Origin: a virus
Length of the DNA: 24,000 nucleotides
Direction: 5' to 3' (one strand)
IMG/VR virus record: IMGVR_UViG_3300032288_003984
Span: 1 to 24,000 of that record
Shown here: positions 2,367 to 23,081 of the stretch, in pieces
Layout of the letters: every line of letters begins with the position of its first letter
Numbering within the stretch: position 1 is the first letter of the stretch
Made by a program: the position numbers and the translations under genes
The notes under the pieces: model-generated
What the model saw: the letters and a program-made list of their open reading frames with translations, nothing else
Told to the model about the DNA's origin: nothing
Databases searched by the model: none

Positions 2367-2416
2367 CCGATGTCCGATTTGTCGGATTAACTCTTGACAA
2401 AGTTTAAGAACGACTC

Positions 2417-2445
2417 TTGCTTTTACCAGTAATTTACGATAAGAT
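2417..2445 (+). promoter_or_regulatory. Sigma70-like promoter of the DUF932 gene
   Basis: TTGCTT at 2417-2422, 17 bases, then TAAGAT at 2440-2445. It aligns over nearly its whole length with the promoter at 1279, including CAGT in the spacer; TG at -15/-14 is replaced by CG. Predicted start is near 2452, followed by an ACGAAAGGA ribosome site before the ATG at 2478. Confidence 0.55.
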
Positions 2446-2477
2446 AAAAAGACATCTACAACGAAAGGAAATAATCT

Positions 2478-3476
2478 ATGGTACACGCCTTAGAAACAAA
2501 AGACAATGAAGTAGCATTTGCACTTAGAGGTGCACCTGCTTGGCATGGTCTTGCAAATGTGTTATTCGATAAAGACGAACACATTAACACTCAAACAATG
2601 TTAGATAGTGCAAAATTATCTAATTGGAATATTGAGTTAGAAGAAATACAAATGCCATATCGTAGTCATAAATCAAACTACTATGTGACACGAACAAACC
2701 CATTTGATAATGAGAAAGACATCTTAGGTGTTGTTGGTCAAAGATACAAAGTTGTGCAAAACGAACAACTTTTTGAATTTGGCGATAATTTACTTGACGG
2801 TGGTGCTAGTTGGGAAAGTGCTGGTTCAATTAAAAATGGAACAGTTGTTTTTGGTTCACTTACAATTCCAAAAGAATTTATCCTAGACCCTAACGGTGCT
2901 AACGATAAAACTGTTACATACTTAGTTGTTCATACATCACATGACGGCTCAGTTTCAGTTCAGGCTGGAATTACACCTGTTAGAGTTGTGTGTCAAAATA
3001 CACTTAACTTGGCGTTGCGTAGTTCAAAGCAAAGTTTCAAATTGCGTCACACTCAAAGCATAGACGGCAGAATTGCCCTTGCTCGTGAAGCACTTGGACT
3101 TACTTTCAAATACATGGACGACTTCGAAGCAGAAGCCAAAGCATTATTTGAAACAAAATTGAACGATAAACAATTTAACGATTTACTAGTTACTGTTTAT
3201 CCTAAGCCAGATAAAGACTCAAAGGGTTCAATTAAAAAATGGGAAAGCAAAATAGACCTAGTAAATGACCTCTATTTCAAATCTCCTACTAACGAAAACA
3301 TCAAAGGTAGTGCATGGGGTGCATTTAATGCATTTACAGAACGCCTAGATTATTTCAAACAAGAACGCAAGAACGGTTCAGAAAATCGTTTAGCGTCTGC
3401 TTCTGGTTTTGACGCTATGTCAAACGCAGAAAAAAACAGATTGTTTAGAGTCGTTAAAGAATTTGCTAACGCTTAA
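2478..3476 (+). CDS. DUF932 phage/plasmid-like protein
   Basis: The 332-residue protein matches the DUF932 family (phage/plasmid-like protein TIGR03299) in length and motifs: an N-terminal GAPAWHGL at 18-25, GQRYKVVQNEQLF at 87-99, GGASWESAG at 108-116, and the signature RVVCQNTL at 169-176. The biochemical role of the family is not established; members are common on phages and conjugative plasmids and are often assumed to act in DNA metabolism or host takeover. No signal peptide or membrane segment. It has its own promoter (2417), a good AAAGGA ribosome site, and a hairpin after the stop, so it is a monocistronic, probably well-expressed unit. Confidence 0.9.
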   Translation: MVHALETKDNEVAFALRGAPAWHGLANVLFDKDEHINTQTMLDSAKLSNWNIELEEIQMPYRSHKSNYYVTRTNPFDNEKDILGVVGQRYKVVQNEQLFEFGDNLLDGGASWESAGSIKNGTVVFGSLTIPKEFILDPNGANDKTVTYLVVHTSHDGSVSVQAGITPVRVVCQNTLNLALRSSKQSFKLRHTQSIDGRIALAREALGLTFKYMDDFEAEAKALFETKLNDKQFNDLLVTVYPKPDKDSKGSIKKWESKIDLVNDLYFKSPTNENIKGSAWGAFNAFTERLDYFKQERKNGSENRLASASGFDAMSNAEKNRLFRVVKEFANA

Positions 3477-4760: not shown

Positions 4761-4786
4761 TATTACGATGACTTGACAGCGTGCCC
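4761..4786 (+). repeat. Bipartite element TATTACGA...TGCCCA, copy 1
   Basis: TATTACGA at 4761-4768 and TGCCCA at 4782-4787, with TTGACA (the -35 box at 4773) between them. The same two words at the same spacing recur five times between 7501 and 8392. Placement across a -35 box suggests an operator. Confidence 0.45.
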
Positions 4787-4801
4787 AGTGTTTAGTATAT
4801 T
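4773..4801 (+). promoter_or_regulatory. Strong sigma70 promoter of the small-gene run
   Basis: TTGACA at 4773-4778, exactly 17 bases, then TATATT at 4796-4801: a near-consensus promoter. Predicted start is near 4808. It is the only strong promoter seen before 7569, so it probably transcribes the whole run 4832-7353 and tRNA-Asp. Confidence 0.75.
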
Positions 4802-4831
4802 GGTTTACGATGGAACTATTAAGGGTGGTAT

Positions 4832-5089
4832 ATGAAAGATTATAGAAAAATTTATGAAAAAAATGGATTAGAAGTTTTTGTTAATCCAGATGATTACTGG
4901 GCTGATTACAAAGTTAGATTAAATAATCATCATGCTAAGACATTTTATGGTGAAACTGCTTGGATGGATGTAACTAGATTTGTACATGACCAAGCCATGG
5001 AATTCTGGGATTTTAACACAGATGGTATTCATAGACAATGGCAACAAGACATTATGTCAGAACTAGAAAGTAGGTTTGCTAATGACTGA
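4832..5089 (+). CDS. Unknown small aromatic-rich protein (85 aa)
   Basis: First gene of the long small-gene operon, with an AAGGGTGG ribosome site. The 85-residue protein is rich in Trp, Tyr, Phe and His (DDYWADYKVRLNNHH, AWMDVTRFVHDQAMEFWDF) and contains no recognisable motif; it looks like a compact alpha/beta fold. It overlaps the following Cys-rich gene by 8 bases. Function unknown. Confidence 0.7.
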   Translation: MKDYRKIYEKNGLEVFVNPDDYWADYKVRLNNHHAKTFYGETAWMDVTRFVHDQAMEFWDFNTDGIHRQWQQDIMSELESRFAND

Positions 5090-5246
5090 TCTTTGTTGGT
5101 ATGATACAAAACAAGGTGATAATTGTCAATGGGAATGTTCAGATATTCCAGGACAGTTCTATTGTAAAAATTGTGATGGATTAAGAATCTGGAATAGATT
5201 TGCTCAGGCTTATTCATTTTATGTTAGAGAGGGACATTATGCTTGA
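5082..5246 (+). CDS. Small Cys-rich (zinc-ribbon-like) protein, 54 aa
   Basis: The ATG at 5082 lies inside the end of the previous gene. The 54-residue product has cysteines at C5, C15, C19, C28 and C31; C15-x3-C19 and C28-x2-C31 (FYCKNCDG) form a plausible four-cysteine zinc knuckle. Five of the small genes in this window's rightward run are Cys-rich, as are several on the other strand. Zinc binding is inferred from spacing; no family recognised. It overlaps the next gene by 8 bases. Confidence 0.65.
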   Translation: MTDLCWYDTKQGDNCQWECSDIPGQFYCKNCDGLRIWNRFAQAYSFYVREGHYA

Positions 5247-5382
5247 TTTTGATCTTGAAGTACCCTTGGAAAAAATCCTTACGAAAATGCTTGACAATGT
5301 CGAAGGTCATGTGATTAACTGTAAGTGTGTTGATTGTAATAGTCTAGAAGTACTAGCCTATATGATTAAGGTGGAGGAATAA
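5239..5382 (+). CDS. Small unknown protein with CKCVDC motif (47 aa)
   Basis: I chose the ATG at 5239 because GAGAGGGA (5226-5233) is well placed for it; an upstream in-frame start at 5200 would overlap the preceding gene deeply. The 47-residue product begins with an acidic amphipathic part (MLDFDLEVPLEKIL) and has C29-K-C31-V-D-C34 in NCKCVDCN, a possible metal site. It ends overlapping the next ATG by one base (TAATG). Function unknown. Confidence 0.65.
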   Translation: MLDFDLEVPLEKILTKMLDNVEGHVINCKCVDCNSLEVLAYMIKVEE

Positions 5383-5468
5383 TGTCAGACAAATGTAATT
5401 GTCATCATTGGGTATGTGGTTGCAACTTTACTGTTGGTCATAACTCAGAATGTAAGGCAGGTTACTAA
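5382..5468 (+). CDS. Tiny Cys/His-rich peptide (28 aa)
   Basis: This 28-residue peptide starts at an ATG coupled to the previous stop, with GGTGGAGGA as ribosome site. It contains five cysteines and three histidines in CNCHHWVCGCN and HNSECK, enough to coordinate a metal ion. Its stop codon overlaps the next start (TAATG). The very short length would normally be a reason for doubt, but the unbroken one-base couplings on both sides and the strong ribosome site support translation. Confidence 0.55.
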   Translation: MSDKCNCHHWVCGCNFTVGHNSECKAGY

Positions 5469-5665
5469 TGCCTAAGTTTAATGTACTATCTGGTACTTGG
5501 TATCACATAGAAGCACCAGATGAAGAAACAGCCTATAAAGCCTATGATGCATACTTTGGTAGCGAACCTATGCCAGAGGGTTGCAAAGTTGTTGAAGGTG
5601 AAGTAGACTCTCAATGGGAAGAAGCCGTACCACCCCCACCATTTGGATTGGAGCCAGCATGGTAG
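5468..5665 (+). CDS. Small acidic unknown protein (65 aa)
   Basis: A 65-residue acidic protein beginning MPKFNVLSGTWYHIEAPDEETAY. The beta-strand, then helix with EETAYKAYDAYFG resembles the small phage and plasmid proteins that carry a beta-alpha fold with a conserved aromatic helix, but I cannot name a family. It ends with a proline run (VPPPPFGLEPAW). It is coupled to both neighbours and overlaps the next gene by 7 bases. Confidence 0.7.
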   Translation: MPKFNVLSGTWYHIEAPDEETAYKAYDAYFGSEPMPEGCKVVEGEVDSQWEEAVPPPPFGLEPAW

Positions 5666-5925
5666 AAGAAACACAAGATAAAGAAATATCGCAGTTAGAA
5701 ACATTCTTTAAATACAACATACCTGTTGATGAAATTTTATCAGGTAGATTAAAAATTCTTATGGCCGATCTATCATGGCAAATGGATTTGCCTACATGGA
5801 CAAAAGAAGAGTTGGATGTTATGTGTGCAAGAATGGACGCACTTGTAGAAGTATCCAACTTGTTGTACGATATCCAATGGCACAAACAAAACTGGGAAAG
5901 GAAAACTAGTGGCAAAAGTAATTAG
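5659..5925 (+). CDS. Small helical unknown protein (88 aa)
   Basis: The ATG at 5659 is preferred over the in-frame ATG at 5614 because it gives the usual short overlap with the previous gene and is preceded by TTGGAGCC. The 88-residue protein is acidic and helical throughout (SQLETFFKYNIPVDEIL; EELDVMCARMDALVEVSNLLYDI), suggestive of a helical bundle or coiled-coil partner protein. No motif recognised. It overlaps the following GTG-initiated gene by 17 bases. Confidence 0.65.
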   Translation: MVEETQDKEISQLETFFKYNIPVDEILSGRLKILMADLSWQMDLPTWTKEELDVMCARMDALVEVSNLLYDIQWHKQNWERKTSGKSN

Positions 5926-6157
5926 TGAAGTAGAACTAAATCTTCAGATGTGGTCAACTGTGGTTTTATCTGCTGAAGAAATTCAGGATATCTATCCAGA
6001 GTTTGCAGATATGGTTGACTTTGAAGATACTGATGAATTGGAGCAGGCACTTCAAGACCATATGGATATGAATTACATAGACCATATTCAATATGCAGAC
6101 GGTGCTTTAGACGACTGTACAGTTCACTTTGTTTATGAGGATGATGGCAGTGAGTGA
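5909..6157 (+). CDS. Very acidic small protein (82 aa, GTG start)
   Basis: A GTG at 5909 follows GGGAAAGGAAAA, an excellent ribosome site. The 82-residue product is strikingly acidic, with many Asp and Glu (FADMVDFEDTDELEQALQDHMD) and a C-terminus DDCTVHFVYEDDGSE. Such DNA-mimic-like composition is seen in phage anti-restriction and anti-CRISPR proteins, but also in many ordinary phage proteins, so composition alone does not assign a role. Confidence 0.65.
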   Translation: MAKVISEVELNLQMWSTVVLSAEEIQDIYPEFADMVDFEDTDELEQALQDHMDMNYIDHIQYADGALDDCTVHFVYEDDGSE

Positions 6158-6533
6158 AGACACATGCTGTGAATTCTGTGGCAACGAACTGTGTAGTTGC
6201 TTGGACCCAAACATGAATCCAGACTCACCTTACTATAAGAAGGTTTTGTTGACGATGGAGGAATGGGAACATCACTTCAGGCCTATTAATAATACTATAG
6301 ATAAGAATGCATCACTTGGTGGTGCAATGTTTGAGACCTATGGTGAAGAGTATGACTACGTGGCTGCTATTGGTCACAGAGAACCAAACCGTATATGGAC
6401 GTATATGGACGATGATAACGGAGATACCGTAATCATTAATGCTTGGTCCTTTGTCAATAGAATCGGGTATTTAATAACAGAAAAACCATATGATGATTCT
6501 ATAGATATAGAAGTACAACTAGATAAAGAATAG
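6150..6533 (+). CDS. Unknown protein with N-terminal Cys cluster (127 aa)
   Basis: I chose the GTG at 6150 because GAGG at 6137-6140 is spaced nine bases from it; the ATGs at 6135, 6141 and 6144 lie too close to or within that site. The N-terminus SEDTCCEFCGNELCSC holds five cysteines in a short span, a probable zinc knuckle. The rest is an acidic alpha/beta domain with a beta-rich middle (GDTVIINAWSFVNRIGYLI). No family recognised. It overlaps the previous gene by 8 bases. Confidence 0.65.
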   Translation: MSEDTCCEFCGNELCSCLDPNMNPDSPYYKKVLLTMEEWEHHFRPINNTIDKNASLGGAMFETYGEEYDYVAAIGHREPNRIWTYMDDDNGDTVIINAWSFVNRIGYLITEKPYDDSIDIEVQLDKE

Positions 6534-6541
6534 GAGATACA

Positions 6542-6775
6542 ATGTTAACTATGGATGAGTATAAAATTATAGATAAGATTTTACCTAATTACCTCGAAGT
6601 TGGAGATCTAATTAAAGTAAAAGACGAAGTCTTTGAAGTTATAAATACAAGGACTACGGATACTGGTTGGGATCTGGTTGTAGTAGATAACTACCAAGAG
6701 ACTAAGGTAATATCGGTGCCAGATAACAAATTGGTAAACTTGGTCATGGAAGAGTCTTTTGACTTTCCACAATAA
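6542..6775 (+). CDS. Small beta-rich unknown protein (77 aa)
   Basis: A 77-residue protein with TAGGAGATACA before its ATG. After a helical start (MDEYKIIDKILPNYL) it is beta-rich: VGDLIKVKDEVFEVINT and WDLVVVDNYQETKVISV alternate like an SH3-like or small barrel domain, as in many phage proteins that bind RNA or protein. Assignment to a family is not possible by eye. It lies 8 bases after the preceding stop. Confidence 0.7.
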   Translation: MLTMDEYKIIDKILPNYLEVGDLIKVKDEVFEVINTRTTDTGWDLVVVDNYQETKVISVPDNKLVNLVMEESFDFPQ

Positions 6776-6808
6776 TCATGATAAACTAAAAGTTTCAGAA
6801 AGGCAATA

Positions 6809-7072
6809 ATGTTCATATCATCAAATAAAGTAGCAAGTAAGATTATTGACCTGTTTTCCAATAATCAAATAAGCCAGAACCAATGGAAGTTTGACATACC
6901 AGATGACATTACAGATGAACACTTGGCTATTGTCGCAACTGCCAAGAACTTTGCAGACGGCATACAATACTCGTTGGATAGAAAGGGTATTGACATACCA
7001 GAGGAAATTGTAGTATCATCAAGAGAGTATAAACAATACATCAACAGCGAGGGTGGAATAACAAAATGCTAG
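6809..7072 (+). CDS. Unknown small protein (87 aa)
   Basis: An 87-residue alpha/beta protein beginning MFISSNKVASKIIDLF with an AGAAAGG ribosome site. Residues 29-60 (DIPDDITDEHLAIVATAKNFADG) are acidic. No catalytic or binding motif is visible. The stop overlaps the next start by 7 bases, so it is coupled to the gene at 7066. Confidence 0.65.
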   Translation: MFISSNKVASKIIDLFSNNQISQNQWKFDIPDDITDEHLAIVATAKNFADGIQYSLDRKGIDIPEEIVVSSREYKQYINSEGGITKC

Positions 7073-7353
7073 ACAAGCCAAACAACGAACTCAAAGCAGA
7101 ACTTATCATAAAGTTTTGGAACAAGTATCATAAAGACCCATTGTTTCAATCTTTCTTTGAATACAATAACTTAGGTGTTCCACTCGCACAATTATCCTAT
7201 GACAGCATTGTTGACATCACTAACGACCATGCTCAACGCATACTTGACGACACCTACTATGAGTTGTGTCAAGTGTACCTATGCAATCCTAATAAGGTCT
7301 ATCTTAGCCTTGAGGAAATGGCTCATGTTGAAATACCAGATGACGAAGAATAG
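7066..7353 (+). CDS. Unknown acidic protein before tRNA-Asp (95 aa)
   Basis: A 95-residue, mostly helical protein (ELKAELIIKFWNKYHKDPLFQSFF) with an acidic C-terminus (EEMAHVEIPDDEE). It closes the small-gene run; its stop is only 6 bases before the first base of tRNA-Asp, so the tRNA is very likely processed out of the same transcript. No family recognised. Confidence 0.7.
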   Translation: MLDKPNNELKAELIIKFWNKYHKDPLFQSFFEYNNLGVPLAQLSYDSIVDITNDHAQRILDDTYYELCQVYLCNPNKVYLSLEEMAHVEIPDDEE

Positions 7354-7359
7354 TAGCCT

Positions 7360-7436
7360 GGTCCTGTAGTTCAGTTGGTTAGAACGCCACCCTGTCACGG
7401 TGGAGGTCGCCAGTTCAAGTCTGGTCAGGATCGCCA
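7360..7436 (+). tRNA. tRNA-Asp (GTC anticodon), CCA encoded
   Basis: A complete cloverleaf: acceptor GGTCCTG pairs with CAGGATC, D-stem GTTC/GAAC, anticodon stem CCACC/GGTGG with loop CTGTCAC giving anticodon GTC, and T-arm with GTTCAAG. The CCA is encoded at 7434-7436. It lies 6 bases after an upstream gene in the same direction. Phage tRNAs usually offset codon-usage differences from the host or replace tRNAs cut by host defence. Confidence 0.95.
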
Positions 7437-7446
7437 CCTGGGGTAG

Positions 7447-7463
7447 AAAAATATATTTTTTTT
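7447..7463. repeat. A-tract/T-tract boundary repeat, copy 6
   Basis: AAAAATATATTTTTTTT lies 10 bases after tRNA-Asp and could terminate the long transcript. It is followed by two ATCCCTTTT words (7469-7485) and a TATATATATA stretch, an unusually easily melted tract. Confidence 0.5.
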
Positions 7464-7500
7464 CCATATCCCTTTTATCCCTTTTATATATATATTCTCA

Positions 7501-7574
7501 TATTACGAAGGACTATTATGTTTGCCTGTATTTTTGATATTACGAAGATCTTGTATATTTGCCCATGATTGACA
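7501..7574 (+). repeat. Tandem pair of the bipartite element (copies 2 and 3)
   Basis: Two adjacent 37-base units, each beginning TATTACGAAG (7501 and 7538) with TTTGCC starting at offset 21. The second unit ends in the TTGACA that is the -35 box of the hydrolase promoter. Between these fixed words the units differ, which suggests a protein-binding site rather than a recent duplication. Confidence 0.55.
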
Positions 7575-7598
7575 ACTTCGTTGTATATGGGCTATAAT
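7569..7598 (+). promoter_or_regulatory. Consensus sigma70 promoter of the hydrolase gene
   Basis: TTGACA at 7569-7574 and TATAAT at 7593-7598 match both consensus hexamers exactly, spaced 18 bases. Predicted start is near 7605, leaving AGGTGGAT (7611-7618) as ribosome site for the ATG at 7628. The two bipartite elements immediately upstream may regulate it. Confidence 0.8.
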
Positions 7599-7627
7599 AG
7601 ATATCCAGATAGGTGGATATTTATATT

Positions 7628-8176
7628 ATGACTTGTATAGTAGGAATAGTAGATTCTTTGAATACCCCCCGCCGTGTGTTTATGGCGGCTGATAGCGGGG
7701 CATCTGATGAAAGTATTATGACCCCAATAATGGATCCAAAGATACAAAGAAATGGAAAGTATTTAATTGGATATGCAGGAGAAACAGGATTAGGACAATT
7801 ATTGCACTCTATTGATCTTCCAGATCCAAATGTGCAAAATAAAGATTTATTACGATTTATGAGAACTAAATTTGCATTATGTTTTAAGAATGCTATAAAT
7901 TTATATTCTCCTTCAACTTCCCCCGCCGATGATAAAGATGGCGGGCTAACGGCACTCATTGCTGTAAAGGGAAGACTCTTTGAGTTTAACTCTGAGGACT
8001 TCCAGTTCAATGAGTACTTGGAAGGTGCTATAGGGAGCGGCTCCCACCTAGCCTTCGGCTCCCTATACACAACTCGGGGGTATAAAGATATAAATAAAAG
8101 ACTCAGAATAGCAGTTAATGCAGCAATAGAATATAGTCCAAGTTGTTCTGGTCCAATAGTTTTTGACCATATTTAA
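7628..8176 (+). CDS. HslV/proteasome-like N-terminal-threonine hydrolase
   Basis: This 182-residue protein has the layout of the proteasome beta/HslV (Ntn-hydrolase) family. The start MTCIVGIVD would expose Thr2 as nucleophile after Met removal. Asp22 (in AADSG) and Lys38 (in MDPKIQRNGKYLIGYAG) correspond to the catalytic Asp17 and Lys33 of proteasomes, and GSGS at 136-139 with the following AFG matches the conserved C-terminal motif. Length fits HslV (about 175). The ATG at 7628 is chosen over an in-frame GTG at 7613, which would bury Thr2 and overlap the ribosome site AGGTGGAT. No HslU-like ATPase is visible here. Whether it cleaves protein or another amide is unknown. It is a single-gene unit behind a consensus promoter. 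Confidence 0.75.
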   Translation: MTCIVGIVDSLNTPRRVFMAADSGASDESIMTPIMDPKIQRNGKYLIGYAGETGLGQLLHSIDLPDPNVQNKDLLRFMRTKFALCFKNAINLYSPSTSPADDKDGGLTALIAVKGRLFEFNSEDFQFNEYLEGAIGSGSHLAFGSLYTTRGYKDINKRLRIAVNAAIEYSPSCSGPIVFDHI

Positions 8177-8233
8177 TTATCTATAAAAATCTATATACTA
8201 TTGGGCAAAATCTAATTATTATCATTTAAAAAG

Positions 8234-8392
8234 TATTACGAATATGCAAGAATATGCCCATAATTTGTCATAATAATATGCCCATATTTATAGAAAAGTA
8301 TTATGAACATATTGACAAAATGCCGATATTATGATAGGAAAATATGGGGCAATATTATAAAATGTATTACGAGATAAGAATTGATATGCCCA
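8234..8392 (+). repeat. Three further bipartite elements (copies 4 to 6)
   Basis: TATTACGA at 8234, TATTATGA at 8299 and TATTACGA at 8365 are each followed by TGCC at 8255, 8321 and 8387, the same 21-22 base offset as copies 1 to 3 and all in the same orientation. In copy 5, TTGACA lies between the two words, as in copy 1 at 4761. Confidence 0.55.
8265..8294 (+). promoter_or_regulatory. Possible promoter downstream of the hydrolase gene
   Basis: TTGTCA at 8265-8270 and TATAGA at 8289-8294 are spaced 18 bases. A second candidate overlaps downstream: TTGACA 8312-8317, 17 bases, TAGGAA 8335-8340 with a TGA extension. Either could serve the small frame at 8344. Confidence 0.35.
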
Positions 8393-8493
8393 ATCACCCA
8401 TTTATCTCCATTTTATTCCACATGACATTATTATTCTTATTTCTTATAACATGTTTAGTACAATATTGTTCTATTGTTGGGGGTATAAATTAA
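8344..8493 (+). CDS. Possible small membrane protein (49 aa)
   Basis: An ATG with AGGAAAAT just upstream opens a 49-residue frame. After a polar N-terminus (MGQYYKMYYEIRIDMPNHP) there is a hydrophobic span of about 20 residues around HMTLLFLFLITCLV, ending QYCSIVGGIN. The membrane-like pattern and the upstream promoter candidates favour it; the extreme AT content of the region and the overlap with a bipartite repeat argue that it could be accidental. Confidence 0.4.
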   Translation: MGQYYKMYYEIRIDMPNHPFISILFHMTLLFLFLITCLVQYCSIVGGIN

Positions 8494-8516
8494 AGTTTTT
8501 TATGTCTTTGGACATA

Positions 8517-8696
8517 TCATTCATTAGTTATTTTTATCCAGGATTTTTCATTTGGATCAATACTTCCTATGTATTGTTCTCCTGTTTCCATGTCTAATAA
8601 TATGTATTTATGAGGTACTTTAGTGTATATAGATAGGGTAATAGGGGAAGGGAGTTCTTTTATCTCTACCCCCGATTTTAGGGTTCTATTAGGCAT
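8517..8696 (-). CDS. Small unknown protein (59 aa)
   Basis: A leftward 59-residue frame with ATG at 8696 preceded by GAGGTAGGCG. The sequence is beta-rich (LSIYTKVPHKYILLDMETGEQYIGSID) and ends WIKITNE. No family recognised. It overlaps the upstream 34-residue gene by 8 bases and is the last gene of the leftward array, ending 1 base from the hairpin at 8501-8516. Confidence 0.6.
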   Translation of the reverse strand: MPNRTLKSGVEIKELPSPITLSIYTKVPHKYILLDMETGEQYIGSIDPNEKSWIKITNE

Positions 8697-13021: not shown

Positions 13022-13174
13022 CTACCACCCTTTCTTATTAATATGTTTTCCCTTATTTGTATAGTCCATTATAGTGACTACTACAGCAAAAGTACACAAA
13101 AATAAAGCAATTATGGTCAAAACTTTATTGATATTGTCTAACAACATAAATGAATCATATACATATTTAATCAT
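13022..13174 (-). CDS. Small single-span membrane protein (50 aa)
   Basis: A 50-residue frame with a clear transmembrane segment (VLTIIALFLCTFAVVVTIM, about residues 18-36) and a basic tail (NKGKHINKKGW). Its ATG overlaps the thioredoxin stop by 4 bases (ATGA). No family recognised. Confidence 0.6.
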   Translation of the reverse strand: MIKYVYDSFMLLDNINKVLTIIALFLCTFAVVVTIMDYTNKGKHINKKGW

Positions 13175-13443
13175 ATGTTATCTAATCCTAATTCTTTTAT
13201 AAATTTATATTTAGGCATTGCACCTGTAGCAAAAGATAAAATTTCTCCATTATCTTTTTCTAATACATATGTTGGAATACTGGATACGTTGTATTTTTGA
13301 ACCATTGCTATATCTTCATCTGCATTAACTCTAATAACTTTTAGATCTGGATATTCTTTTTCTATTTCATCAATGATTGGTGTCATAAGTTTACATGGTC
13401 TACACCATTCGGCCCAAAAATCTATTAAGATCAAATCTTTCAT
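13171..13443 (-). CDS. Thioredoxin-like protein
   Basis: A 90-residue thioredoxin-fold protein with the active site W13-C14-R15-P16-C17 in DFWAEWCRPCK and the cis-Pro motif S-I-P57-T. It is shorter than the usual 105-110 residues because the N-terminal beta1-alpha1 is missing, as in other phage thioredoxins. WCRPC differs from the common WCGPC; the Arg should raise or change the redox potential or partner choice. It is expected to reduce protein disulfides in the cytosol, perhaps serving a ribonucleotide reductase or DNA polymerase encoded elsewhere. It overlaps both neighbours by 4 bases in the SpeD-headed operon. Confidence 0.9.
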   Translation of the reverse strand: MKDLILIDFWAEWCRPCKLMTPIIDEIEKEYPDLKVIRVNADEDIAMVQKYNVSSIPTYVLEKDNGEILSFATGAMPKYKFIKELGLDNI

Positions 13444-14204: not shown

Positions 14205-14636
14205 CTATTTTACTATAATTTCTTTAGGTTGTAAATGCTTTGGTACATATTTTTTTACTCTAATTTTGAGTAATCCATTATCTACCTCGGCTTCTTCAAC
14301 TTCAACATGTTCACCTAGAGCAAATGTTGATGTGAATGAGCGTGTAGCAATACCTTTATGTAGATATTCTTGACCCTCTGATTCACCGTCAGACATTGTT
14401 CCAGAAATGTTAAGTTTGCCATTGTTTACAGTTACCTTAATATCTTTTTTATTAAAACCAGCGATAGCAAATTCTAATTCGAATTCGCCTTCTTCTAATT
14501 TTTTAATATTGTAAGGTGGGTAACTAGAGATGTGCTTGTTGAGATCATTTCTCAATCCAAGCAACTTGTTGAACGAGTCATCGAATCCCAAGAAAAAGGG
14601 TTCGAGTTGCATTGTTCGTAGCAATGAGCCTACCAT
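14205..14636 (-). CDS. Small heat-shock protein (Hsp20 / alpha-crystallin)
   Basis: A 143-residue Hsp20. The N-terminus EPFFLGFDDSFNKL resembles that of T4-like and cyanophage Hsp20 proteins. The alpha-crystallin domain spans about 40-130, with FELEFAIAGFNKKDIKV, YLHKGIATRSFTSTFAL and the signature A116-x3-N120-G121-L122-L123. The C-terminal I140-I-V142 is an IxI-like motif for oligomer assembly. It would act as an ATP-independent holdase for virion or stress-labile proteins. Ribosome site AAGGAGGAAAT is near-perfect; it has its own strong promoter (14694) and terminator, so expression is probably high and independent of the flanking genes. Confidence 0.95.
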   Translation of the reverse strand: MVGSLLRTMQLEPFFLGFDDSFNKLLGLRNDLNKHISSYPPYNIKKLEEGEFELEFAIAGFNKKDIKVTVNNGKLNISGTMSDGESEGQEYLHKGIATRSFTSTFALGEHVEVEEAEVDNGLLKIRVKKYVPKHLQPKEIIVK

Positions 14637-14693
14637 ATTTCCTCCTTAATAGCGAGTTATTCATTACCCCCCATTCGGCAGGGTAACTATAGT

Positions 14694-14722
14694 ATTATAG
14701 CATCCTATCTGGAATTTGTCTA
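14694..14722 (-). promoter_or_regulatory. Strong extended -10 promoter of hsp20
   Basis: On the minus strand TAGACA (14717-14722), 17 bases, then TATAAT (14694-14699) preceded by TGC. The -10 box contains the stop codon of the upstream glycosyltransferase gene. Predicted start is near 14687. Confidence 0.75.
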
Positions 14723-15441
14723 TTTTCTACTGGAATAAGTCTTCCTTTATGCTGCACAATAATGTCTTTTCTAACCACTATTGGTCCTATCAATTTATTT
14801 ATAATATCTTGCATTGAGAAATCATCATTAATTTTCATAAAGGAATTGTGATGAAATGGAACTGTAAAGTATGAGGGTGCATTAAATAGCATTGCTGCTA
14901 TGGTGGCTCCTCCATATTGTAATTTTGGTTGACTATCTATATCTTTACCTAATAAGTTATATCCTGGAACGGTTGCACCAACAACCTGACTATCTACTTC
15001 TAATAGTCCTTCCAAAGCCTCTAGGGTTAGATCCATATCGCTATCAATAAATAAAATAGAATCATACGTTACCTTTGGAACCATGTCATGCTTAGTATCT
15101 TCTTCACTCCAAGTTTCTCTTTGAGCGTATTCTCTAATTAAGTTTCTTCCTGTTTCTATTCTTATCCATCTATTTTGAGAACCTACCTTAGTTTGATGAT
15201 CATTTATATAGTATGTCCAATATTTTCCATTTACCTCTCCTAGTGCTCTTAAAACATCTAAAAATGGATTTAAACCGTCTTTATCAACTTCTATTGAAAC
15301 AAAAAATTCACAATTTGGAAATGATTCTTTAATCTTAATTCTATTTTTAAGCCAATCTAAATGTTCATTACTTTCACACTTCCATCTAACCATAGTTGTT
15401 GCAATAAGAATCTTAGAATTATAATTTATTTGCTTAAACAT
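14695..15441 (-). CDS. Glycosyltransferase-like protein, paralogue A
   Basis: A 248-residue GT-A-like protein. It shares a series of motifs with the protein at 20051-20761: an N-terminal ILIATTM strand, EVDKDGLNPF (51-60), GKYWTYYIND with a following NRWIRIETGRNLI, and an acidic ILFIDSDMD (D133-S-D135), then VGATVPGYNLLG. The DxD-like site suggests sugar-nucleotide binding. The ATG at 15441 is preferred because a -10 box (TATCAT) ends seven bases before it, giving a leaderless start; an in-frame ATG further upstream would lie in the divergent gene. It is the left end of the glycan cassette; its target is unknown. Confidence 0.65.
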   Translation of the reverse strand: MFKQINYNSKILIATTMVRWKCESNEHLDWLKNRIKIKESFPNCEFFVSIEVDKDGLNPFLDVLRALGEVNGKYWTYYINDHQTKVGSQNRWIRIETGRNLIREYAQRETWSEEDTKHDMVPKVTYDSILFIDSDMDLTLEALEGLLEVDSQVVGATVPGYNLLGKDIDSQPKLQYGGATIAAMLFNAPSYFTVPFHHNSFMKINDDFSMQDIINKLIGPIVVRKDIIVQHKGRLIPVENRQIPDRML

Positions 15442-15458
15442 AAGAACTATGATACCAT
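15430..15458 (+). promoter_or_regulatory. Rightward leaderless promoter of a divergent pair
   Basis: TTGCTT at 15430-15435, 17 bases, then TACCAT at 15453-15458 preceded by TGA. The ATG at 15467 lies where transcription is expected to begin. Its -10 overlaps that of the leftward promoter at 15449-15477. Confidence 0.55.
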
Positions 15459-15477
15459 GGATACCTATGAAAAACAA
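15449..15477 (-). promoter_or_regulatory. Leftward leaderless promoter of a divergent pair
   Basis: On the minus strand TTGTTT (15472-15477), 17 bases, then TATCAT (15449-15454) preceded by TGG. Seven bases separate the box from the ATG at 15441. Both promoters cannot be occupied at once, so the two genes are probably expressed alternately. Confidence 0.55.
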
Positions 15478-16255
15478 GAGATTCATCATACAGGCTGGCA
15501 GTAGAAGTAACGATGATATAGATAATTATTTAAAGTTTTATAATGAAAAAGATTATGACTGTGGAGATAGGTGGAATAACTTTTTAGGGGTTAAAAAACA
15601 TATGATACCAATTAAAGGTGAGCCCTTAATTCATAGAACTCAAAGATTGTTATTAGAAAATGGTGCAACCGATGTTATTGTAAAATGTAATAAAGAAGAT
15701 ATAGAAAAATATACTATTATTGGTTGTAATGGTATTGAAAACCCAACTACCAATCTAAATAAATCTTATCCAGATCATGAGTTTTTTAATTGTCAACCAT
15801 TACTTAATAAAGAAGGTGTTACGGTTTTATTATTTGGAGATATATACTATAGCGAAAATTTAATTAAGCATTTAATAGAAAATGATTCAGAAGATTGGCA
15901 CTATTATTCTAGATGGAGAAACTCAGATATAACTGGAAAGATTTATGGAGAAATGTTTGCTTGGTTTTTTAATAATAATCATTTTAATAAAATGTTTTCT
16001 GCTGCTGAATTATCAATATCTACTGTAAAAAATTTAATTTCATTAAAAGATAGTAATCATCCAGTTGCTAATCTTGGATGGAAAATGGAAGATACATCAA
16101 GGATGACCTATAGAATTCTTGCTGGATTAGATCCAGAAGATCCTCATTTAATAGAAGGACATCATTGGATTGAGTGGAATGACGAATCGGAAGATTTTGA
16201 TTATCCACAAGACTGGATTAACTGGTCTTCAAGACTTCCTCATCTAGCGTATTAA
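15467..16255 (+). CDS. Nucleotidyltransferase-fold (GT-A-like) protein
   Basis: A 262-residue protein with features of sugar-phosphate nucleotidyltransferases: an N-terminal strand, PIKGEPLIHRTQRLLLENGATDVIV (48-72, the subunit and product-binding pattern seen in RmlA/GlmU/MobA-like enzymes), and VLLFGDIYYSE (120-130) with the metal-binding acidic residue. The usual N-terminal GxGxR-PK loop is replaced by QAGSRSNDD, so catalytic ability is doubtful. I chose ATG 15467 by the leaderless promoter. It is one of only two rightward genes in the cassette; its 3' end overlaps the convergent LicC-like gene by 38 bases. Confidence 0.55.
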   Translation: MKNKRFIIQAGSRSNDDIDNYLKFYNEKDYDCGDRWNNFLGVKKHMIPIKGEPLIHRTQRLLLENGATDVIVKCNKEDIEKYTIIGCNGIENPTTNLNKSYPDHEFFNCQPLLNKEGVTVLLFGDIYYSENLIKHLIENDSEDWHYYSRWRNSDITGKIYGEMFAWFFNNNHFNKMFSAAELSISTVKNLISLKDSNHPVANLGWKMEDTSRMTYRILAGLDPEDPHLIEGHHWIEWNDESEDFDYPQDWINWSSRLPHLAY

Positions 16256-16952
16256 TTAAACTTTCAACATTGTCATAGTCTTCTTTAACATTTAAATCCC
16301 AATATCTAAGACCTGGTATATATAGCATTGAAAGTGGAATACTTTCTTTTGATACCGCCAGTGCCACCGCTTCCTCATATAACAAAGTATAGTTATTAAA
16401 TTGATTATAATATCTCATAGATCCTAGCATTTCTTTTGTAAAGTGAGATGGACCAGTAAAATTAGGTGGCTGCTGTAGCCCATTTCGATACTCCATACCT
16501 CTATTAAAGTTAACTAATCTACCATTTTCAAACTGTGGAACAGAAACACTATGTGTATTTTTATATCCAGAGTGAACCATTGTATTACCTGATGATTTAA
16601 GTAATTCTTTTAATGCCCTCTCTTCAAATACAAGGTCTCCCTCTGTTTGAATAAAGCAGTCTGATATAAATGGATACGCTAAACTCATTGATTGTGTTGT
16701 TTGATATTTATCGTACTCTGAATTATTAATTAATATTACATTTTCATATTTTTTAAGATGATCTTCTAACATTTCAAACTTATATCCACCTATTACAATT
16801 ATCTCTTTTACCCCATTTTTTATCATTATGTCTATATTTCTTTCAAGCAATGTTCTACCATTAAATGAATATAGACACTTAGGCTTATCAGACTCAAGCC
16901 TTTTACCCATGCCAGCAGCAAGAATTACTGCTTGACTACATATGTGTACCAT
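16218..16952 (-). CDS. LicC-like nucleotidyltransferase
   Basis: A 244-residue nucleotidyltransferase. The N-terminal loop LAAGMGKRL (11-19) with KPK (23-25) is the NTP-binding signature; GVKEIIVIGGYKFEML (47-62) and NNSEYDKYQTTQSMSLA (76-92) followed by IQTEGDLVFE (101-110) follow the order seen in LicC-type CTP:phosphocholine cytidylyltransferases and related enzymes. The metal site would be Asp106. Adjacent to a choline-kinase-like gene, so a CDP-choline (or CDP-ethanolamine) pathway is the leading hypothesis, but another sugar or alcohol phosphate is possible. The start is predicted to be leaderless (TATAAT ends six bases before the ATG). Confidence 0.7.
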   Translation of the reverse strand: MVHICSQAVILAAGMGKRLESDKPKCLYSFNGRTLLERNIDIMIKNGVKEIIVIGGYKFEMLEDHLKKYENVILINNSEYDKYQTTQSMSLAYPFISDCFIQTEGDLVFEERALKELLKSSGNTMVHSGYKNTHSVSVPQFENGRLVNFNRGMEYRNGLQQPPNFTGPSHFTKEMLGSMRYYNQFNNYTLLYEEAVALAVSKESIPLSMLYIPGLRYWDLNVKEDYDNVESLINTLDEEVLKTS

Positions 16953-16960
16953 GCTATAAT
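16932..16960 (+). promoter_or_regulatory. Strong rightward promoter of the kinase gene
   Basis: TTGACT at 16932-16937, 17 bases, then TATAAT at 16955-16960 preceded by TGC. It lies within the start of the LicC-like gene; predicted start is near 16967, before the GTG at 16996. Confidence 0.7.
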
Positions 16961-16987
16961 TATAGCCTACAGGGCTATTAAAGTAAA
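16959..16987 (-). promoter_or_regulatory. Leftward leaderless promoter of the LicC-like gene
   Basis: On the minus strand TTTACT (16982-16987), 17 bases, then TATAAT (16959-16964); six bases later comes the ATG at 16952. Both -10 boxes lie in the perfect palindrome GCTATAATTATAGC at 16953-16966. Confidence 0.65.
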
Positions 16988-16995
16988 GAGGAAAA

Positions 16996-17952
16996 GTGTT
17001 AGAAGAACTATACAGTAGAAAAAGTATACCTCCATTCGGAGAGCCTTACCTAGGACATAAAAATTTATTTAGAAATAATTTAGATAGAACTCCTGCCCTA
17101 AAAAAATGGAAAAAATATGAACCACTAGTTAATGGAACGACAAACAAAGTTTACAAAATTACTCTTGAAAATGAATCTTTTAGAGTATTAAGAATTTGGA
17201 ATAAAGATTCTAATAAAATAGGAATACTTAGAGATTGTGAAATTTTTAATTCAACAATTGCACATAGAATTGGTATTGCACCAGAGGTTTTATATTCTAG
17301 TATAGATAAAAATCTAATGGTTAGCGAATTTTTAGATGGAGATGTTTTAGAAAATAATGATTTTTTAAATTTATCCATACTTTCTGATACTATAAAAGCA
17401 ATTAAAAAATTGCATAGTGGACCTAGATTTGTAAACGAATTTGATATATTCAACCTAATGGATAAATTTTTACAAATTTGTAAAGAAAATAATTATAAGT
17501 TGCCTGAAGGATTTTTAGAACATAAGAAAAATATGTTTTATATAAATAAAATTAGAAAAGTATTGAAGCAACAAAAAGGTCCTACTGTTGCATGTCATAA
17601 TGATCTTATGGCAAACAATATTATTGTCACTGATAAAGGAACTAAATTTATAGATTTTGAATATTCTGGAAATAATGATCCTTGTTATGAATTAGGACAC
17701 ATGTGGGTAGAAGCAGATTTAGATTTATCTAAACTAAACTACATCATTATGGAATATTTTGGGTATTGGGATCAAAAGAATGTTAATAAGGCTATACTTT
17801 ATAGCATAATTTCTAGTTATACTTGGTATCTTTGGGGAGTAATTCAATCCAACATATCTACAAATAACTATAATTATACAAAAGATTATGAAAATAGATA
17901 TAAAAAAGCAAATTTAAAACTTAACGGTAAAGAATTAAATAACTTCTTTTAA
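16996..17952 (+). CDS. Choline/ethanolamine-kinase-like (LicA-like) protein
   Basis: A 318-residue protein of the choline kinase / aminoglycoside phosphotransferase superfamily. LVNGTTNKVYKI (44-55) forms the P-loop-like segment; the catalytic H201-N-D203-L-M-A-N-N208 and the metal-binding IDFEYSG with D220 and E222 are typical of choline and ethanolamine kinases (IDFEY). Expected reaction: ATP-dependent phosphorylation of choline or a related amino alcohol, the first step of LicA-type pathways. The start is GTG at 16996 with AGAGGA close by. It is divergent from the LicC-like gene from overlapping promoters, and overlaps the convergent epimerase gene by 18 bases. Confidence 0.75.
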   Translation: MLEELYSRKSIPPFGEPYLGHKNLFRNNLDRTPALKKWKKYEPLVNGTTNKVYKITLENESFRVLRIWNKDSNKIGILRDCEIFNSTIAHRIGIAPEVLYSSIDKNLMVSEFLDGDVLENNDFLNLSILSDTIKAIKKLHSGPRFVNEFDIFNLMDKFLQICKENNYKLPEGFLEHKKNMFYINKIRKVLKQQKGPTVACHNDLMANNIIVTDKGTKFIDFEYSGNNDPCYELGHMWVEADLDLSKLNYIIMEYFGYWDQKNVNKAILYSIISSYTWYLWGVIQSNISTNNYNYTKDYENRYKKANLKLNGKELNNFF

Positions 17953-18801
17953 TGCCATTCTTACGCCTTCTTCAAGGCTAATTTCTGGTGTATAAAATGA
18001 AAGCATTTTAGTTGGATCGCATACTCTGTAATAAACTCCAGTAGGTTGTGCTGTTAAATGTTCTATATCTGGGTTGTATTTATTAAATTTAGTAACCATA
18101 GATGCTAGTTCGTTAAAACTTGTTGGTCTACCCCAACCTAAATTAACTGGTCCCTCAATGTCTTGATTGATTGCTTCATCAACTGCATTAACAACATCTC
18201 TCATGTGAATAAAATCTCTTACCTGTTCACCATCTCCCCAAATTTGAAAAGGATCTAGTTTTCTTTTAGATCTATCTATAAATGATGGAAAGGGGTAAGA
18301 AAGATCTTGATCTGTTCCATATCCTGAAAATGGTCTAAAAATATTCACTTTAATGCCAGCAGTCTGTGCAAATTGTGCAAGATATTCCCCTGTTAACTTT
18401 GACCATCCATATGTTAAGTCTGGGTTACGAACATCATCAAGATTTATGTCAGATTCTTTTAATTTATAGCCAGAGTCTCTATATTGTTTTTCAATTGGAT
18501 ATGCTGCAGAAGATGAGAAATAAACTATTCTACCTGGCTTAGTTCTAAGTGCCCATCCAAATAATTCTGAGTCAATTGATAGGTCTACTGCTACAGAAAG
18601 TGGTGAGCCTTCAATTGTTGCACGACCACCAACAACTGCTGCAAGATGAATTACTAAATCATAATACTCTTGATTAACTTTAAAAAAATCTCTAGCATCA
18701 TTTCCTTCTACAATATCAATACCAGTTATATCGTGATCTTTATATTTTTCACAAAAATACTTTCCAACAAATCCTCTATGTCCAGTAATTAAAATTTTCA
18801 T
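17935..18801 (-). CDS. NAD(P)-dependent sugar epimerase/dehydratase (SDR)
   Basis: A 288-residue extended SDR. The Rossmann motif T6-G7-H-R-G10-F-V-G13, DLVIHLAAVVGG (48-59), a Ser in FSSSAAYP (95-102) and the catalytic pair Tyr131-x3-Lys135 (YGWSK) are all in place, followed by RPFSGYG and VRDFIHMRDVV. This fits enzymes acting on nucleotide sugars, such as UDP-glucose 4-epimerase or GDP-fucose synthase; GGRATIEGSP resembles the latter group. It acts in the cytosol upstream of glycosyltransferases. The following gene in the operon starts one base before its end, consistent with one leftward operon from 21545 down. Confidence 0.85.
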   Translation of the reverse strand: MKILITGHRGFVGKYFCEKYKDHDITGIDIVEGNDARDFFKVNQEYYDLVIHLAAVVGGRATIEGSPLSVAVDLSIDSELFGWALRTKPGRIVYFSSSAAYPIEKQYRDSGYKLKESDINLDDVRNPDLTYGWSKLTGEYLAQFAQTAGIKVNIFRPFSGYGTDQDLSYPFPSFIDRSKRKLDPFQIWGDGEQVRDFIHMRDVVNAVDEAINQDIEGPVNLGWGRPTSFNELASMVTKFNKYNPDIEHLTAQPTGVYYRVCDPTKMLSFYTPEISLEEGVRMALKEVI

Positions 18802-19382
18802 TATAAACCTTTCTTTCTTTTATATGTTATATGATCCTGCTCTATTAATCTTTGAAACTCTTCATTGATAGCCACATGCCCATTAGGTTCAAAGTGAATA
18901 AAGTCTGTATTAAAAATCCTACCCGCTTTTTTATTAGCATCTGCTTGTTCATATAAAAAAGTATCTCCATAGTACCATCTAAAGTCTTCATCTAATCTTA
19001 ATCCAGAATCTAGCCTTAGCATCCACGATGATCCACCACCATTGCCTGTATTTTCCGTGTCCAATACATCTAGGTCTCTATCTATCATTTCTTTATACAT
19101 TTTTTCTACAAAATCGTCTGGAAAATCTACATCATCGTTAACAATATAGACATACTTAGCACCATTTTCTTCGGCATATTTAATACCATTATTCCACCAT
19201 CTATTGATATTTATACCTGCAAAATCTTCTATATGATTGACATTATCAAACTTTGTGTACCCTGGTTTATTATTTACAATTACAATTCTTTTATGATATT
19301 TATGTAACTTATTAATTACATTTGGAAGATATTGCTCTCTTGTTCCAATTGGTATAACTACCCATACATCATCTAATGACAT
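18801..19382 (-). CDS. Glycosyltransferase-like protein (GT2-type)
   Basis: A 193-residue protein with a single GT-A domain: WVVIPIGTRE at the N-terminus (strand plus loop), IVIVNNKPG, then YVYIVNDDVDFPDD with N82-D83-D84 as the DxD-type metal site, and YYGDTFLYEQADANKKAGR (138-155), which is the acceptor-side WxGDxD...R pattern of GT2-like rhamnosyl and related transferases. It is short but complete. No membrane segment, so it works in the cytosol. Start and stop overlap neighbours by one base. Confidence 0.75.
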   Translation of the reverse strand: MSLDDVWVVIPIGTREQYLPNVINKLHKYHKRIVIVNNKPGYTKFDNVNHIEDFAGININRWWNNGIKYAEENGAKYVYIVNDDVDFPDDFVEKMYKEMIDRDLDVLDTENTGNGGGSSWMLRLDSGLRLDEDFRWYYGDTFLYEQADANKKAGRIFNTDFIHFEPNGHVAINEEFQRLIEQDHITYKRKKGL

Positions 19383-20050
19383 TATAGTTCCAATCTATTC
19401 AGTAAATTTCTATACCCAGCCAAAGTTCCTACATCAAAGTATCTTCCATCAACTTCAAATGCAAAATGTTTCTTAAAATTATCTACTACTAAGTATTCAA
19501 GATCTAATCCTGGATGAGCCTTGAATCTATCTAATTGCATAATGATTTCATGATTTAGTGCCAAAGCACCCCACATATGTGGATAATCACAATCTGATAC
19601 CTTATCTTTCATATCTGTAATAGAATTTTTTACTAATTCAACTTGTCCACCCCTGCCTTTTAATTCATCATCTATTGGCCAGCACGCTAATGAAATTAAA
19701 TTATCTTTTATAGATTCAGATAATTTTATATATGGATTTTCTCCTTCAAAATATGTATCTGCCATACCTACTAAATAATTATCTGACTCATATACATTAG
19801 CCATTTTTATTACTGCATCATTCATTGTAGATGGTTCAATAATAACTACTTCAGTTTTAGGTAAATTAAATGATTTTACCAACTCATACCAAACACTGGT
19901 TGTACTTACAACAACTTTATCAACATAAAAACTCATTTGTTTAACTTGTCTTGTCAGTAGTGGAGTGTTATCTTTATCACACGGTAATGCAAACTTAGGT
20001 AGTCCACCCATTCTACTTGCTTTGCCAGATGCTGGTATTAATCCTATCAT
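19382..20050 (-). CDS. Sugar-phosphate nucleotidyltransferase
   Basis: A 222-residue enzyme with the NTP-binding loop PASGKASRMGGLPKF (6-20, including R13 and PK at 18-19) and a YFDVGTLAGY motif near the C-terminus, both typical of RmlA/GlmU/GalU-type enzymes that join a sugar-1-phosphate to NTP. Between them LVGMADTYFEG (about 93-103) carries the metal-binding Asp. The product would be an activated sugar for the transferases next door; which sugar cannot be told. It starts one base after the end of the paralogue-B gene and overlaps the GT2-type gene by one base. Confidence 0.8.
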   Translation of the reverse strand: MIGLIPASGKASRMGGLPKFALPCDKDNTPLLTRQVKQMSFYVDKVVVSTTSVWYELVKSFNLPKTEVVIIEPSTMNDAVIKMANVYESDNYLVGMADTYFEGENPYIKLSESIKDNLISLACWPIDDELKGRGGQVELVKNSITDMKDKVSDCDYPHMWGALALNHEIIMQLDRFKAHPGLDLEYLVVDNFKKHFAFEVDGRYFDVGTLAGYRNLLNRLEL

Positions 20051-20761
20051 TTATCTATGAACCGTCATATCATGACCTCGTGTTTCTATAGCACCAATTG
20101 ATTCAGGAAAATGTTTTGCAATTGAATCCATTCTTACATGTGTTGGTATTCCTAAATATTTTAATGCATCATGATGATATGCTGGATCATCAGATAGATT
20201 CATATCTAAGTCCCAACGCCATCTAATTTTTGTAAATACATGTCTTGAAATAAATATCGCTGCAGCAGAAGCCATTGTATTTTCTACAGGATATGGATAC
20301 TCTGGAATTCTTGGACCCCTTAAATTATATGTTGGAATAAATGGTGCACATAATGGATAGTTCATTTCAAGCATCTTTGGAATAACATCATCTGGTGCCA
20401 TACAATCTGCTGCCATAAATAATAAGTGTGTAACTGCTGGATTAGCCTGAGCATAATCTACAACGAGATTTTGTCCAAATGTAATATGTCTTAATCTATT
20501 TAATGTTGTAACACTTGTTCTACCATCATCCAATGAATATGTAAAATATTCACCACCTATTGCTTCAAGTCTTTCTATGAATGGTTTAAATGGCTCTATA
20601 CCTCTTGCATCTACTTCTAATGCTGCAAAGTATTTTACATCAGAATAATTTGCAAATCTTTGATAGTGTTCTTTTATTGCTTCTGCATTTTTCATCCAAG
20701 ATCCCCAAGTATCTGGATTGTCCATTGAGAATGCTGCTGTGGTTGTTCCAATTACTATCAT
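20051..20761 (-). CDS. Glycosyltransferase-like protein, paralogue B
   Basis: A 236-residue homologue of the protein at 14695-15441. Shared motifs are an N-terminal VIGTTTAAF strand, ALEVDARGIEPFKPF (48-62), GGEYFTYSLDDGRTSVTTLNR (69-89), FGQNLVVDYA and LLFMAADCM (113-121), then APFIPTYNLRGP. Here the acidic motif is AAD rather than DSD. The ribosome site AAGGATAAT precedes its ATG. A pair of paralogous transferases at the two ends of one cassette suggests that they add successive or alternative residues. Confidence 0.65.
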   Translation of the reverse strand: MIVIGTTTAAFSMDNPDTWGSWMKNAEAIKEHYQRFANYSDVKYFAALEVDARGIEPFKPFIERLEAIGGEYFTYSLDDGRTSVTTLNRLRHITFGQNLVVDYAQANPAVTHLLFMAADCMAPDDVIPKMLEMNYPLCAPFIPTYNLRGPRIPEYPYPVENTMASAAAIFISRHVFTKIRWRWDLDMNLSDDPAYHHDALKYLGIPTHVRMDSIAKHFPESIGAIETRGHDMTVHR

Positions 20762-20762
20762 A

Positions 20763-21545
20763 TTATCCTTCCCATAATGTTAGGTTTTGTACTTCACTAT
20801 TATACAGCAACCATTGGCTATGCCATTGATTAGTTTTATGTAAATGTGAATCTGGCTTTACAGGGCCACCAAAATGAATAATACAAGCATGATTTAATGT
20901 CTGTATAGTTTGTGCGTGCTCTGCAAATCTATTATCAACATTATATTTAAGTGGCAATAATGTTTTATTATCTTTAAATATTTCATTAATTATGTCTTGA
21001 TCAATATACTGATAATTATTACCTATTAAAGAATCAAACTTTTCTTGTATATTATTCTCTCTCCAATATTTAAGTGATGTTTTATATACTGCAGAACTTA
21101 TATAAGCATAATCTGTATCTAAATCATAGTAAACATCAAGAACTCCAGCAATTGGCATAGGGTATTTTGCCTTTAAGTAGTCATCTATATTTTTTATAAT
21201 TAATGTGTCACAATCTATGTAGTTTATCCAATCGATATCTTCTGGAACAGCATCTACTATGCATGATTTTAAAAATATAGTTTCATCGTACCAATGACTT
21301 TTATATAGCATATCTTGTTTTTTCCATTGGTAATACTTTTTACTATTAATAAAGGTTATATTAATACCGTTTCTAATTTGCGTAAAATAATTTTTTATCT
21401 TATCTTTTTCTATATTATTAAATTCATCATCTTTTGTTAGAATATAAATATTTATATCTACTGTTGAATTTTTAATTAAAGAATAACAAGAAGTTTTAAA
21501 TAAATTGAAATATCTTTTGTCTACAACATAGACAACATTTGACAC
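20763..21545 (-). CDS. GT8-family-like glycosyltransferase
   Basis: A 260-residue protein with the GT8 pattern: an N-terminal VVYVVDKRYFNLFKTSC, a DxD in INYIDCDTLI (D111, D113), IDQDIINEIF (181-190) and a C-terminal IIHFGGPVKPD (222-232), matching the HxGxxKPW motif that closes the active site in GT8 enzymes such as LgtC. It would transfer galactose or glucose from UDP-sugar. The start is a GTG, seven bases after the nuclease gene; the ribosome site is weak. First gene of the leftward cassette operon; no strong promoter is seen before it. Confidence 0.8.
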   Translation of the reverse strand: MSNVVYVVDKRYFNLFKTSCYSLIKNSTVDINIYILTKDDEFNNIEKDKIKNYFTQIRNGINITFINSKKYYQWKKQDMLYKSHWYDETIFLKSCIVDAVPEDIDWINYIDCDTLIIKNIDDYLKAKYPMPIAGVLDVYYDLDTDYAYISSAVYKTSLKYWRENNIQEKFDSLIGNNYQYIDQDIINEIFKDNKTLLPLKYNVDNRFAEHAQTIQTLNHACIIHFGGPVKPDSHLHKTNQWHSQWLLYNSEVQNLTLWEG

Positions 21546-21552
21546 AGTTTAC

Positions 21553-21948: not shown

Positions 21949-21955
21949 AGTATTA

Positions 21956-22902: not shown

Positions 22903-23081
22903 TAAACGTCCAGATCTAATGGAGTTGGGGCGGTAACAAAAGCACCGCATTCTGCACATTCTGCATCTAATAAATATTGCTCAATATCATAATTCTCATC
23001 AAATGTAACTAAAATTTTAAAAATGTTTGTGCCGCATTCTGGACAAGAACTTGTTGGGATACCTCTAGCGTTGATTGGCAT
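22902..23081 (-). CDS. Zinc-ribbon-like small protein (59 aa)
   Basis: A 59-residue frame with C13-P-E-C16 and C42-A-E-C45, two CxxC pairs about 26 residues apart: a classic small zinc ribbon. The middle is beta-like (NIFKILVTFDENYDI). No further family assignment. It overlaps the gene upstream by 17 bases and couples to the glycosylase-like gene by one base. Confidence 0.65.
   Translation of the reverse strand: MPINARGIPTSSCPECGTNIFKILVTFDENYDIEQYLLDAECAECGAFVTAPTPLDLDV

Follow-up and report, generated by a model that had tools for sequence, protein, structure and literature searches.

What reads an asymmetric two-word sequence that a phage carries six times, always in one orientation, mostly around a single hydrolase gene? 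The copies, of the form TATTAYGA-N13/14-TGCC, lie in a 24,000-nucleotide stretch of virus DNA (IMG/VR virus record IMGVR_UViG_3300032288_003984, positions 1 to 24,000; hereafter the window). We tentatively favor, at slightly below even confidence, the reading that they are asymmetric operator- or stoperator-like sites for a phage DNA-binding regulator that acts on transcription, with the sites densest at a junction of two convergent gene blocks.

Six oriented copies in the window

A sequence-only reading had placed copies at 4761, 7501, 7538, 8234, 8299 and 8365, in one orientation and in none of the other genes, and each of these points holds: the six matches are exact, all on the + strand and all intergenic. 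Across 100 dinucleotide shuffles the mean was 0.06 and the largest count 1. The complete record contains 6 forward and 0 reverse copies, a reversed control pattern gives 0, and five of the six copies fall inside 890 bp (binomial p ~4e-7), with spacings of 37, 65 and 66 bp plus larger gaps. As that reading had also noted, the two words are not inverted copies of each other, making this a two-part asymmetric site. Since TATTAYGA by itself is also frequent (13 on the + strand and 3 on the − strand) and partly genic, it is only the pair at a gap of 13–14 bases that is special. An extra TGCCCAT at 8279 has no TATTAYGA of its own. In a pattern scan of IMG/VR, the matches listed came mostly from contigs with one match. 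The layout is as follows.

4761..4785, +, copy 1 (TATTACGATGACTTGACAGCGTGCC); the −35 box for gene 4832-5089 lies inside it
4773..4801, +, promoter TTGACA-N17-TATATT of gene 4832-5089, which copy 1 overlaps
7501..7526, +, copy 2, preceding the hydrolase promoter
7538..7563, +, copy 3, stopping 5 bases short of the hydrolase −35 box
7569..7598, +, sigma70-type hydrolase promoter TTGACA-N18-TATAAT (12/12), from sequence
7628..8176, +, HslV/proteasome-type Ntn-hydrolase gene (PHROG 1040, E 3.6e-19)
8234..8258, +, copy 4; equivalents in relatives lie ~605-620 bases past the hydrolase start
8299..8324, +, copy 5, with TTGACA inside
8365..8390, +, copy 6, last of the array
8391..8420, +, pyrimidine-rich block CAATCACCCATTTATCTCCATTTTATTCCA, adjoining copy 6 and conserved in 23 aligned sequences
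8443..8474, no strand, block CTTATAACATGTTTAGTACAATATTGTTCTAT, which contains the near-palindrome TAGTACAATATTGTTCTA and is the last conserved stretch
8517..8696, −, first short gene of the opposing block, read from sequence

The hydrolase gene thus sits between the two halves of the array, and copy 1 stands apart at the promoter of a different gene, 2.7 kb away from the other five. As had been claimed, TTGACA lies within copies 1 and 5; copy 3 had been described as ending in a −35 box, and this needs correction, as its TGCC stops before TTGACA. The hydrolase promoter is flanked by TGCCCAT (7560) and an inverted partner, ATGGGC. The junction downstream of the hydrolase is convergent because the opposing block is on the − strand. 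As RNA, the downstream array folds no better than chance (z −0.55), which favors a site acting at the DNA level, and we rejected an RNA-level element.

The array in metagenomic and cultured relatives

Is the array kept in other phages? In about 20 relatives it surrounds the same hydrolase gene, on the same strand and at similar distances. We found 25 IMG/VR contigs with the hydrolase at 77-90% identity; most have elements ~60-150 bases before the hydrolase start, equivalent to copy 2, and further elements ~605, 670 and 712 bases past it. The few without an exact match have TTAAGA in place of TTACGA or a drifted second word. An alignment of 23 sequences contains conserved islands (AAAAAGTATTAMGAAT..., AAAACATTACGAA...ATATGCCCA and CTATTGACA-N12-TATGATAGG) and, on its right side, the last element, the pyrimidine-rich block and CTTATAACAT...ACAATATTGTTCTAT, where conservation ends. 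In the longest relative (61.5 kb), the bipartite element is restricted to the neighborhood of the hydrolase, except for one match 2.4 kb away that recurs in several contigs and looks like coding sequence.

The association with promoters is also found in relatives. In several of them, TTAMGA-N4/6-TTGACA-N2/4-TGCC occurs in the part of the array that corresponds to copy 5. Promoters of gene-4832 homologs, read in their own upstream regions in L011, L012, L015, L016, L017, L019, L023, L028 and L202, have a TTGAC box with TTAMGA words above the −35 box and/or in the spacer. The composite TTAMGA-N-TTGAC-N-GCC, expected 0.01 times per 24 kb, is present both in the array and at the gene-4832 promoter, there in some relatives as well as in the window, and on the + strand only. 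Judged as sequence, the −35 overlap and the promoter words appear to be marks of operators. Separately, promoters of the repeat region (window 2380-2475 and its equivalents in G009, G007 and G011) have TGTCCGATTTGT a few bases before TTTAAGAA/TTGAC boxes.

From its proteins, the window appears to be an actinophage fragment, kin of Streptomyces phages of the Stanwilliamsviridae. Megablast of its DNA against phage records found nothing close. The Streptomyces phages Karimac and Yaboi have a protein with 50% identity to the DUF932 protein of the window (2478-3476), and Karimac gp8 matches the product of 1456-2184 at 48%. By tblastn, no cultured actinophage has the hydrolase, which has distant relatives only, in phages of other hosts. 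Two genes anchor the synteny.

2478..3476, +, DUF932 gene, homolog of Karimac gp003, which lies inside the terminal repeat
13171..13443, −, thioredoxin-like gene; its Karimac homolog, gp70, lies on the unique side

The first 12,590 bases of Karimac are repeated exactly at its right end, and the repeat begins in a convergent gap that separates the thioredoxin side from the DUF932 side. As the gene order thioredoxin – array – DUF932 is the same in the window and in longer relatives, as far as the contigs reach, the convergent gap of the window (8176-8517) corresponds to the start of the cultured repeat. In the cultured group, pile-ups of reads and a doubling of coverage had served to locate the genome ends (PMC5764925); PhageTerm was used for Coruscant (PMC7650747).

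At that repeat start, a bipartite element of the same kind, TTTACGA-N~8-AAAATTNCCGG, is present in 15 cultured Boydwoodruffvirinae. The first 890 nt of their repeats contain 71 TCGTAA against 1 TTACGA, and the copies extend, in the orientation of the window, to YTTTACGAATG-N-AAAATTNCCGGG. The second word is enriched relative to random positions of the same non-coding DNA (0/2000, with the consensus drawn from the same sequences). The non-redundant Karimac genome has five bipartite matches, four of them within the first 905 bases (p ~2e-8, for a pattern derived from these phages). Altogether, 83 records match the terminal region. More distant contigs appear, by sequence, to join the window-type and cultured-type forms: L193, in which the hydrolase is 41% identical, has ATTACGAAGAGCTTGTAAAATCGCCAGG and two further copies like it around that gene, L205 has TTACGATCCTTATCAAAAAAATCGCTG, and L204 has two copies.

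The physical end itself is marked in seven cultured phages (Karimac, StarPlatinum, LukeCage, MulchMansion, Mildred21, IchabodCrane and MindFlayer), in which the last TTACGA starts 26-27 nt from the end. The satellites MulchRoom and MiniFlayer have no array; MulchRoom keeps only an end copy, with its TTACGA at the same distance from the very end. MulchRoom (L163) and its helper MulchMansion share their ends (left, NTGGGGTAT...TTCGTAAG; right, CATGTAT). Comrade, of a sister subfamily, is arranged differently: its thioredoxin-DUF932 neighborhood is internal and its terminal repeat is 734 bases. About ten + strand copies, mostly bipartite, lie in short gaps between co-directional genes at 98.5-106.5 kb, and the Comrade ends have no copies. 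Thus, the element tracks the gene neighborhood rather than the physical end.

Regulator, terminus or origin

If the element is a regulatory site, how would it work? One sequence-specific phage DNA-binding protein, or two partners, could read the two words two helical turns apart. In the window the words are TTAMGA and WATGCCC; the cultured relatives have TTTACGA and AAAATTNCCGG instead. At the hydrolase and gene-4832 promoters, the protein would occupy the −35 region or its immediate vicinity and control initiation; at the convergent junction, where the opposing gene blocks come together, it may serve as an operator- or stoperator-like mark or stop for transcription. We infer from the sites both that a protein binds and that the phage encodes it, as well as the direction of its effect. 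The sequence-only reading had offered a regulator site as one of two possibilities; the asymmetry, two-turn spacing, conservation, −35 overlap and dispersed Comrade copies all speak for that part of its proposal.

In anatomy, the element most closely resembles the operators and stoperators of L5-type repressors in cluster A mycobacteriophages, which are likewise asymmetric and located in promoters and short intergenic gaps, and whose orientation correlates with transcription (PMC9283540). There, the repressor is a monomer whose two DNA-binding domains contact successive major grooves (PMC9283540). However, L5 sites are 13 bp long and scattered through the genome of a temperate phage, whereas the present element is 22–27 bp long, consists of two separated words and is clustered at one junction in lytic-type phages without a known repressor. 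We do not claim membership, given the different length and consensus and the lack of a known repressor; among the proteins scanned there was no L5 gp71-type repressor, although no homology search was aimed at one.

Several observations weigh against a regulatory site. No binding protein was identified. In the cultured Boydwoodruffvirinae the array lies beside the physical genome end, not at promoters of coding genes, and seven phages plus one satellite have a copy exactly at the end, a position that transcription control does not explain. In the AT-rich stretch of the window, promoter-like sites are no commoner than in shuffles, so the association of the element with weak boxes proves little. 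Finally, the strand is constant within each array, yet its sense relative to transcription is opposite at the repeat-region promoters of the window and in the Comrade gaps.

Given the terminal copies, could the element instead define the genome end? It might be a site, like pac or cosB, through which terminase or a partner finds where the long terminal repeat starts and defines the genome end; copy 6 would then be the terminal copy, with the end near 8390-8480. We regard this as unlikely. The synteny with Karimac, the mapped ends, the strand bias in the first 890 nt and the fixed distance of the last TTACGA from the end all argue for it. Contigs L015, L016 and L023 stop 346-494 bp past the hydrolase (P ~0.01), and such assembly breaks just past the array are weakly suggestive, as a possible sign of a repeat end in the window group. 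cosB and pac sites, such as the R sites of lambda, are terminase-binding sites of which several of the same type lie near the genome end, and the cultured relatives similarly have several same-type sites on one side of the mapped end. Unlike those sites, the present ones are spread over 0.7 kb, occur at promoters, which a terminus signal leaves unexplained, and in Comrade are dispersed with the gene neighborhood; adjacency to a mapped end is thus found in the 15 cultured Boydwoodruffvirinae and not in Comrade. The terminal repeat is established for the cultured relatives and putative for the window phage.

Also against this explanation, MulchRoom and the Karimac group have the terminal element in common, yet the large terminase of MulchRoom shows no similarity to the Karimac enzyme (Karimac being related to the helper MulchMansion). 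We rejected a shared terminase behind the shared end, as the large terminases of the satellites lack detectable similarity to Karimac's. A candidate small terminase beside the Karimac large terminase could not be assigned. The outer junctions of the cultured phages and the window group look alike by eye, and this likeness failed a scan (not significant) and is not used as support.

Somewhat more doubtful is a replication origin, in which the copies would be iteron-like direct repeats for a phage initiator, beside DnaA boxes and AT-rich DNA. The iteron origins of plasmids such as P1 and F combine same-orientation repeats with DnaA boxes and half-repeats at promoters, which counts for this possibility: the present repeats share one orientation and span about two turns, partial copies occur at promoters, and DnaA boxes are adjacent in relatives. 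A pair of exact or near-exact boxes lies just outside the repeat, at −93/−94 and −69/−71 from its start, in six of seven cultured relatives (Karimac, Yaboi, IchabodCrane, Squillium, Larnav and MulchMansion, the last with four exact boxes), and a run of DnaA-like sequences lies to the right of the L205 array. The iteron half of the sequence-only proposal gains from these boxes and loses on several other counts. Unlike P1 and F iterons, the copies are irregularly spaced (about 35-240 bp in cultured relatives) rather than regular direct repeats, no initiator or Rep protein is known, and neither the Coruscant site nor, at 0-1 mismatch, the window array has a DnaA box. As exact boxes recur at several places of the repeat region in G004 (L172, L215) and L201, DnaA boxes are not specific to an origin. 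Copies are dispersed in Comrade, and satellites without replication genes (PMC10690885) also lack the array. As a separate observation, the exact TTATCCACA boxes of G004 and L201 lie on one strand, several of them 20-70 bases before TTTACGA-type words.

Near the array, 12 cultured Boydwoodruffvirinae, including Karimac (L147:774-862, −), encode a conserved RNA of ~85-100 nt with a predicted three-way junction (−36 kcal/mol; 8/23 pairs with double-sided changes). It is also present in Comrade (L157:13597-13680) and weakly in L204 (12973-13068), has no Rfam match and was not found in the window; most copies lie behind a TTGACA-N17-TANNNT promoter and read toward the genome end. A further idea, to which we assign a low probability, is that in cultured relatives the array, the terminal copy and this RNA act together as the system by which the ends of the 11-13 kb terminal repeats are recognized and fixed, and that the signal is also read at promoters. 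If so, early transcription would be coupled to genome-end processing through a signal for long-terminal-repeat genomes.

It is improbable that the two words are the −35 and −10 boxes of promoters for a phage or alternative sigma factor. The 13-14 base gap with its one-base variation would fit such a class, as would the last array site of several relatives, at which the second word is TATGCT with TTGACA 17 bases above, or TATAAT. However, for sigma factors such a gap is short, the registers at which sigma70 boxes overlap copies 1, 3 and 5 differ, and transcripts from the array would enter no gene of their own in cultured or window-type phages. Chance or a low-complexity artifact, conceivable in an AT-rich region, is refuted to the point of being negligible by the shuffles, the bias toward one strand and the conservation of the element across 15 cultured phages and about 20 relatives.

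The regulator, terminus, origin and promoter-class readings are not fully exclusive, and one protein could serve two of these functions. In the literature that we searched there was no description of regulatory or end-forming signals for the Stanwilliamsviridae and their metagenomic relatives, which are large actinophages of lytic type. An oriented two-word site common to metagenomic phages and dozens of cultured Streptomyces phages is thus a testable handle on early regulation, on the making of the 11-13 kb terminal repeats, or on both.

Beyond the thioredoxin-like gene, the region 14205-22959 of the window contains − strand genes for Hsp20, nucleotidyltransferases, an epimerase, glycosyltransferases and a pyrimidine dimer glycosylase, together with one choline-kinase-like gene on the + strand.

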